62,026 bases of DNA from Halovenus aranensis (GTDB taxonomy: Archaea; Halobacteriota; Halobacteria; Halobacteriales; Haloarculaceae), in NCBI RefSeq assembly GCF_900100385.1, contig NZ_FNFC01000017.1:1-62026 (forward strand). Reading direction: 5' to 3'. Positions 61,286-62,026 of the stretch are shown piece by piece. Each line of letters starts with the position of its first letter. The stretch's first letter is position 1. The notes under the pieces are model-generated. The model was not told the DNA's origin. It ran no database searches and worked only from the letters and a program-made list of their open reading frames with translations. The position numbers and the translations under genes were made by a program.

Positions 61286-61357
61286 GGGCTCGTAGATCAG
61301 TGGTAGATCACTCCCTTGGCATGGGAGAGGCCCCGGGTTCAAATCCCGGCGAGTCCA
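61286..61357 (+). tRNA. tRNA-Ala, anticodon GGC
   Basis: A 72-nt cloverleaf: acceptor GGGCTCG pairs CGAGTCC (one G-U), D stem GATC/GATC, anticodon stem CTCCC/GGGAG with loop TTGGCAT (anticodon GGC), T stem CCGGG/CCCGG with loop TTCAAAT, discriminator A. CCA is not encoded. It reads GCC and GCU alanine codons. The last 24 nt, plus one base, recur exactly 106 bp downstream. Confidence 0.97.
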
Positions 61358-61358
61358 T
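61334..61358 (+). repeat. 25-bp direct repeat, copy 1 (tRNA-Ala 3' end), possible att site
   Basis: From the second C of the T-stem to one base past the discriminator. It is identical over 25 bases to 61440-61464. Integrases often use the 3' half of a tRNA gene as an attachment site and rebuild the gene on insertion, so this may be an att core. No integrase is visible in the window. Confidence 0.75.
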
Positions 61359-61744
61359 CGGAGCGACCGAAGTTTTCTGAGCGAGAGCGACCGAGACGAG
61401 ATTTGAATCACGCGAGACGAGTATAGCGAGTCTCGCCATCGGGTTCAAATCCCGGCGAGTCCATTCGCTTTTCTCTTCACTCCGGTCCGGTACCCCTCCC
61501 GGAGCCACCTACGCGAATAAACGCCCGCGTTTGTGTACTGTATCGGGCCACGTTCCGGCACAGTCTGAGACAGAATACTCACAGCATCGGTGCCAAACGC
61601 GGGAGTCTTCTCCCGTAGTGACCAGTCAGACTGGTGCCCGTCGCGCTCGTCGGCGGTCTCTTTTAGTTAGTTGTCTGGAATTACCCCACGAAAATTCATT
61701 TTATATAATAAGTATTTTAAATATCAGAAGATGACGCATAGGGT
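61358..61744. other. intergenic region with tRNA repeat, hairpins and promoter of the TbsP-like gene
   Basis: A 387-bp region without a convincing gene. It starts with an 81-bp spacer between two copies of the tRNA 3' end, holding a 10-bp direct repeat GAGCGACCGA (61361-61370, 61385-61394) and a hairpin GCGAGAC/GTCTCGC (61412-61436). Further on are dyads AAACGC-CC-GCGTTT (61519-61532), CGGGAG-TCTT-CTCCCG (61600-61615) and ACCAGTC-A-GACTGGT (61621-61635), and an AT-rich promoter (about 61695-61725). A short open frame within it looks non-coding. Confidence 0.6.
61440..61464 (+). repeat. 25-bp direct repeat, copy 2 of tRNA-Ala 3' end
   Basis: Exact second copy of 61334-61358, carrying the T arm and acceptor 3' strand without the 5' half of a tRNA, so it is not a second tRNA gene. 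Preceded by a 7-bp-arm hairpin (61412-61436). Confidence 0.8.
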
Positions 61745-62026
61745 ATGGCCACTGGCGAGATTTTCGAGACGGGCGAATATATCGAGCGTCTTCTCTCTGA
61801 GACGGTAGACGGCCCGCTCCGGATAGCGACTTCGCACCCGGCGATACTGGAAGCGGTCGTATCGGCGGCCGTCGAGCGACCGCCCGAGACCGGGACTCAC
61901 GTCGAATGCGTCTCCCGAGAGTCGACAATCGAGACACTGCTCGACAACTTCGCGGTTGCGACACAGCTCTCGGAGGTCCTGAAAGACGGCTGTCTGGACT
62001 TGCGTGTGACCGCTCAGGCGGGCGAC
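61745..62026 (+). CDS. TbsP-like (DUF5821-type) transcriptional regulator, N-terminal part (cut by window edge)
   Basis: The frame from ATG 61745 stays open to the right edge, giving 94 residues: MATGEIFETGEYIERLLSET, LRIATSHPAILEAVVSAAVE and STIETLLDNFAVATQLSEVLKDG. The pattern of a Rossmann-like strand, AILEAVV helix and LLDNFAVA-SEVL resembles the haloarchaeal TbsP/DUF5821 family of glucose-responsive regulators. This is from memory and needs the missing half. AT-rich sequence (TTTATATA and TATTTTAAATA) 20-45 nt upstream is a strong promoter candidate. It follows the tRNA-Ala repeat region. Confidence 0.55.
   Translation, partial: MATGEIFETGEYIERLLSETVDGPLRIATSHPAILEAVVSAAVERPPETGTHVECVSRESTIETLLDNFAVATQLSEVLKDGCLDLRVTAQAGD

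Follow-up and report, generated by a model that had tools for sequence, protein, structure and literature searches.

A haloarchaeal family of tRNA-anchored hairpin modules that copy the 3' end of the host tRNA and may serve as att-like recombination units

The 106-bp arrangement behind the tRNA-Ala(GGC) gene of Halovenus aranensis, in the 62,026-nucleotide stretch of contig NZ_FNFC01000017.1 analyzed here (the window), belongs to a family of modules, anchored at tRNA genes, that extends across the haloarchaea. Each module follows the same plan, in which hairpin 1 is succeeded by an inverted T-arm, hairpin 2 (typically CACGCGAGACGAGCGNAGCGAGTCTCGCCATCGGG) and a copy of nucleotides (nt) 54-73 of the resident tRNA. 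We give about an even chance to the reading that the module is a T-loop-targeted, non-autonomous, att-like recombination unit that folds on the tRNA-sense strand.

The tRNA-Ala(GGC) locus carries a structured repeat unit

The tRNA-Ala gene with anticodon GGC is intact and occupies positions 61286..61357 of the plus strand (ARAGORN; Rfam RF00005, 69.2 bits). An earlier note on this DNA had described exact 25-bp repeats at its 3' end, 106 bp apart and flanking an 81-bp spacer, and both the coordinates and the repeat were confirmed. The 25-mer CGGGTTCAAATCCCGGCGAGTCCAT has two exact occurrences in the window, 106 bp apart from start to start around the 81-bp spacer, and no further match there even at 3 mismatches; two matches were seen in 0 of 100 dinucleotide shuffles. 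The first repeat (61334..61358, plus strand) takes in tRNA nt 54-73 (61338-61357) plus one base, and the second (61440..61464, plus strand) contains nt 54-73 again (61444-61463) and forms the module end, nt 54-73 being the copied segment as defined by mapping 153 modules.

The hairpin-1 region (61358..61398, plus strand) is of the Ala type (TCGGAGCGA...) and carries the 10-bp direct repeat GAGCGACCGA twice, at 61361-61370 and 61385-61394. The same Ala-type region (TCGGAGCGA...CGAG) recurs at the tRNA-Ala loci L002, L067, L084, and L206. An inverted T-arm copy at 61397..61407 (minus strand; inverted repeats I1 and I2, 91% complementary) can pair with either flanking direct copy. Hairpin 2 (61412..61436, plus strand) has the stem GCGAGAC/GTCTCGC, with arms at 61412-61418 and 61430-61436, an inner tandem G.A and an apex loop, and is nested within the inverted T-arm pair 61397-61407 / 61444-61454. 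The earlier note had seen the spacer hairpin and the two copies of GAGCGACCGA, both of which we recovered, and had missed the inverted T-arm at 61397-61407. Relative to shuffles, the 54-nt hairpin gave z -5.4 as sense RNA, z -3.1 as antisense RNA and z -3.2 as single-stranded DNA (ssDNA; about -3 on both strands), and covariance model R1 matched the window at 61399-61452 with 78.7 bits. No curated Rfam family exceeded its threshold on the module; only the tRNA passed, and two weak matches fell on the tRNA. We also rejected a ubiquitous generic hairpin, since the pattern GARCGNAGYGA is not above expectation in the window (1 match compared to 1.5 expected) and its single match lies outside the module.

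A stretch of 562 bp separates the second repeat from the contig end at 62026. The search for a downstream integrase proposed in the earlier note found none within the 81-bp unit and none up to the contig end, where the sole downstream open reading frame (61745..62026, plus strand), truncated by that end, encodes the N-terminus of a TbsP-like regulator (Pfam PF19138, E 4e-8) without a close homologue in 17 other Halovenus genomes.

The module family spans the haloarchaea

A search with the 195-bp locus in 18 Halovenus genomes returned spacer-like matches, all of the same plan, behind tRNA-Arg, Gly, Phe, Glu, Ser, and Ala. A unique scar was rejected because the spacer recurs behind many tRNA genes. 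Of the Halovenus tRNA-Ala loci that were read, most are without this module, so that the presence of the arrangement at every tRNA-Ala, which the earlier note would have taken as the mark of a processing signal, was not observed. A strict pattern scan of one genome per species, covering 84,980 species, yielded 16 stretches, all haloarchaeal, with 15 of them at most 400 bp downstream of a tRNA. The covariance model, built from 19 examples found via sequence similarity or pattern, had matches in 131 of 146 Haloarculaceae genomes, representing all 22 genera, and across the class in 218 of 292 genomes and 60 of 77 genera (E 1e-4). In a phylum-wide draw, 27 of 197 genomes were positive, all within the haloarchaeal order, and no module was seen in the non-haloarchaeal relatives among these 197. 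There was no module match in phage and plasmid collections and no exact pattern match in IMG/VR, resources of uncounted haloarchaeal content; two weak matches to bacterial plasmids were judged to be chance. On these grounds a phage or plasmid origin was rejected.

Modules follow tRNA genes and copy the host from the T-loop onward

In three complete haloarchaeal genomes, 41 of 45 full-length matches were located less than 600 bp downstream of a tRNA, a zone amounting to about 0.7% of the genome, and 39 were on the same strand. About a quarter of the tRNA genes in these genomes (35/137) carry a module. Reading 210 distinct matches in context placed a same-strand tRNA within 800 bp of 173, with 27 anticodons represented; among the rest, some were opposite-strand readings of the same palindrome and others were modules displaced by islands.

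Position by position across 153 modules, host-specific identity begins at T-loop nt 54 and ends at the discriminator, nt 73, while the 5' T-stem is barely copied; since these modules were retained at 15 or more matches of 20, only the edges of the segment are free of selection. The tail copy matches its own tRNA at a median of 20/20 (mean 18.4) compared to a mean of 12.9 for other tRNAs. Host specificity of the inverted arm is limited to nt 54 to about 63-64, and an inverted copy of the entire tRNA end was rejected because the acceptor part is barely host-specific (5.61 versus 5.32 of 11). Where the T-loop of the tRNA departs from the consensus (70 modules), the arm fitted its own tRNA better than the consensus in 61, equally well in 6 and worse in 3. 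Hairpin 1 also follows the tRNA type, its identity between families being 0.60 for the same tRNA and 0.54 for different tRNAs; none of 500 label shuffles was that high. In 44 of the 48 distal copies that depart from the tRNA in nt 66-72, pairing with the tRNA 5' strand is poorer, which indicates that the distal tail copies decay.

Covariation supports the structure, and a G.T excess suggests folding of the tRNA-sense strand

An alignment of 111 distinct rows, whose fitting to the model leans toward structure, contained 96% standard pair cells and 166 cells changed on both sides, compared to 37 in shuffles, and slid structures collapsed. An alignment of 19 sequences made without model fitting gave similar figures, with 94% standard pairs and 20 double changes versus 5. 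In hairpin-2 stems read on the sense strand, G.T exceeded A.C by 46:11 overall and by 24:2 among high scorers, although most matches come from the structure model and both the pairing and the G.T excess are in part ascertained. This excess suggests that folding takes place on the tRNA-sense strand, in the form of RNA or ssDNA, with the reservation that the model is RNA-trained and biases the G.T to A.C comparison; ssDNA predicts the same sign as RNA. Apex loops are mostly GNA triloops (93/166). Loops of this kind cap d(GCGAAGC), an exceptionally stable DNA mini-hairpin referenced in PMC10527192. The GNA triloops point to DNA, whereas the better sense-RNA fold points to RNA.

Modules are gained and lost between relatives and exchanged at T-arm copies

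The number of modules per locus ranges from 0 to about 5. In 30 Haloarcula genomes compared at tRNA-Gly(TCC), this one tRNA has 0, 1 or 2 modules behind it, some intact and some decayed, in which the types of hairpin 1 and hairpin 2 are variously combined; many of these genomes share a downstream gene. Empty and occupied alleles thus exist at one orthologous locus: genome G030 has no module and G024 has two, and the two alleles can be aligned starting at the last copy of the tRNA tail. Tandem rows occur at L246, L247, and L255, and at least three copies in a row were found at Gly(TCC), Ser(TGA), and Leu(TAG). Degenerate modules are present at L105, L107, and L124.

Hairpins are also exchanged between conserved flanks. 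At tRNA-Glu(TTC), the module of L048 combines hairpin 1 of the first module of L042 (97%) with hairpin 2 of the second (98%). At tRNA-Arg(CCT), L036 and L037 are 93% alike in hairpin 2 and 99% alike in the flank, but only 61% alike in hairpin 1. These combinations place the breakpoints at the T-arm copies.

Islands and gene cassettes use the same tRNA genes

Integrative elements lie beside modules in several relatives. In Halovenus carboxidivorans (L050), a 14-kb island, whose tyrosine integrase lies next to type I restriction genes, is situated between the tRNA and the module. A 10.4-kb island occupies the same position behind tRNA-Val CAC (L127), its tyrosine integrase adjoining the distal tRNA tail, and a 1.27-kb island does so at L131. 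Two similar modules bracket the elements at L144 (4.8 kb, broken integrase), L143/L065 (1 kb, PIN toxin pair) and L240. The elements at L131 and L240 have a longer core that spans the tRNA 3' half, and therefore use another part of the tRNA. The islands show traffic at the same tRNA genes and are not proof that their integrases move the modules.

We also observed a 1276-aa methyltransferase-like open reading frame in the L127 island, and cassettes of about 1 kb bounded by partial tRNA-Arg tails that stand in the same array as modules, with no integrase seen in them. The latter were found at L056/L133 (Halovenus carboxidivorans, tRNA-Arg TCG) and, in Haloarcula, at L065/L143 and L130; by sequence reading they encode a Doc-like toxin, or a PIN toxin with its antitoxin.

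A T-loop-targeted att-like unit and competing explanations

In the reading that we favor, each module would be a tiny att-like unit, acquired and dropped by recombination with breakpoints at the T-arm. The T-loop would be the region of strand exchange, and the T-stem and its inverted copy would be the binding sites. Insertion of one unit at T54 would rebuild the tRNA 3' end and displace the copy of nt 54-73 by about 106 bp downstream, and repeated additions would give tandem rows. The inverted binding site would have to follow its target, which would lead to target adaptation. The agent would presumably be a tyrosine recombinase acting on a sense strand folded as ssDNA, and movement would go beyond duplication by homologous recombination.

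We favor the att-like unit because it explains the nt 54 boundary, the T-arm breakpoints, the discrete gain and loss, the tandem rows and the adaptation to the target. It is supported by the agreement of the nt 54-73 limits with the T stem-loop region of tRNA used by archaeal integrases (PMC8371274), by the inverted arm that tracks the T-loop variant of its host, and by the elements bracketed by module pairs. Support also comes from the existence of a family in place of a singleton, the tRNA association, the sense-strand G.T excess and the GNA triloops. The reading is weakened by the lack of any phage or plasmid match, of any IMG/VR pattern match and of a recombinase linked to the module. Host-specific arms and a tRNA-type-specific hairpin 1 suggest long residence at one tRNA and count against it as well, as do the better fold of sense RNA (z -5.4) than of ssDNA (z -3.2), the similar units upstream of tRNA-Gly, unexpected in a 3'-end system, and the possibility that generic recombination between 25-bp repeats changes copy number. 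It was judged unlikely that one module hops conservatively from one tRNA species to another, since acceptor strands would be swapped.

The main rival, which we consider unlikely though by no means negligible, is a structured RNA: transcription would carry the module along in the pre-tRNA as its 3' trailer. The downstream T-arm copy would sequester the inverted T-arm from the tRNA, and the hairpins would direct 3' processing or termination, or yield a stable trailer RNA. The position of modules directly behind the tRNA and on its strand fits a trailer, as do the sense-strand G.T count far above A.C, the z of -5.4, a hairpin 1 that is specific to the tRNA type across families, and the leader versions immediately upstream of tRNA-Gly. 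However, just 35 of 137 tRNA genes and not all copies have a module, presence varies between orthologous loci and decayed copies are tolerated, nothing in the module is a clear partner for the copied acceptor strand (nt 64-73), and GNA triloops predominate over GNRA tetraloops.

Somewhat less likely are passive scars, that is, decaying remnants of integration or tandem duplication at tRNA 3' ends in which template switching makes the palindromes and keeps them perfect. The order direct-inverted-direct is a template-switch signature and is what the modules display; the poorer pairing of most differing distal copies with the tRNA 5' strand (44/48) and the degenerate modules at L105, L107, and L124 agree with decay. 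Random scars would not, however, converge on one covarying hairpin architecture in 60 genera and at 27 anticodons.

We regard as doubtful a more elaborate, integron-like haloarchaeal tRNA system, in which a tyrosine recombinase would act on folded ssDNA T-arm palindromes at many T-loops, stacking, swapping and excising hairpin units and occasionally small toxin-antitoxin gene cassettes. Very improbable is the proposal that the repeats are attL and attR of a single island since lost, or a single att site whose island lies beyond the right end of the contig. In relatives, islands with a tyrosine integrase are indeed found next to such modules behind tRNAs, but at L050, L127, and L131 they are to the left of the module, between it and the tRNA, and the spacer is a family member and not a unique leftover.

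The footprint of tRNA integration proposed in the earlier note stands in part: the 3' segment is duplicated from the T-loop onward and the number of units differs among relatives, but a lost-island scar is not supported as the full account of a spacer that proves to be a hairpin unit, conserved and covarying across 60 genera and 27 anticodons. Of the three options offered there, a minimal non-autonomous element fits best.

Relation to known systems

Like the tRNA att sites of tyrosine integrases, the module duplicates the tRNA 3' segment from the T-loop, restores an intact tRNA and has integrase islands at the same places. The direct repeat of the tRNA 3' end that restores the gene is present (25 bp in the window; nt 54-73 in 153 modules), and no attP on an episome was found among the phages, plasmids and IMG/VR patterns searched. 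Unlike such sites, it is a unit of about 106 bp without integrase or cargo, with an inverted T-arm, conserved hairpins, tandem rows and a spread over 27 anticodons. On paper the module resembles an integron attC site, as an imperfect palindrome with paired outer sites, an unpaired internal loop, a variable apex stem and a similar strand asymmetry, and its arrays resemble cassette arrays in their head-to-tail units, sometimes with small genes (Doc, PIN) between cores. In contrast to attC, the core is GTTC and not GTTRRRY, no integron integrase is known at these loci, the module is anchored at a tRNA, and most units have no gene.

Tandem tRNA-associated genomic islands and satellites, such as tycheposons, are kb-sized and carry a recombinase or cargo; modules share their tRNA-anchored accretion and differ as structural units of about 106 bp. 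The small non-coding mobile repeats of haloarchaea (MITE, PATE, SMR; PMC3119063) are likewise short and palindromic, but they are not described as tRNA-bound or as copying a host tRNA end. We have filed the module family neither as an integron nor under any named repeat family. No published description of it was found in the open literature searched, a scope outside which most subscription literature falls, and the family points to a DNA-shuffling (or RNA-tail) system at haloarchaeal tRNA genes that is apparently undescribed.

If the att-like reading is correct, the tRNA 3' flanks of a whole archaeal class would bear repeats that copy the host T-loop and follow its variants, that differ between relatives by discrete units and that mark the entry sites of defense and toxin-antitoxin islands. 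Haloarchaea would then have a tRNA-anchored recombination landscape. This reading would also account for recurrent tRNA-tail duplications that may be taken for single island scars, and would provide a testable link by which tRNA genes and folded DNA hairpins are tied to gene acquisition. Should the trailer-RNA reading be correct instead, the modules would be a new class of pre-tRNA trailer structures.

Related arrangements at tRNA genes

Three further arrangements were observed. On the leader side, almost confined to tRNA-Gly, copies of the 5' end occur 55-125 bp upstream of the gene, sometimes twice, together with an inverted 5' end and a hairpin of the form GAGCAAATCC-NNN-GGATTTGCGA; such units precede tRNA-Gly TCC at L106, L107, L108, L115, L116, and L121, and also occur at L090 and L092 (Gly CCC) and at L033 (Gly GCC). 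At L238, L241, L242, L244, and L249, whole tRNA genes (Asp GTC, Arg GCG) have been duplicated along with their modules, the copies lying within 0.4-1.5 kb. Finally, a second module type behind tRNA-Ala has an inverted acceptor strand in place of the inverted T-arm (e.g., GTGGACTCGTCGACCCTCGCAAACGCTACGCGTTTGCTCGGTCCCGACGAGTCCA) and was found at L014, L027, L024, L007, and L009.
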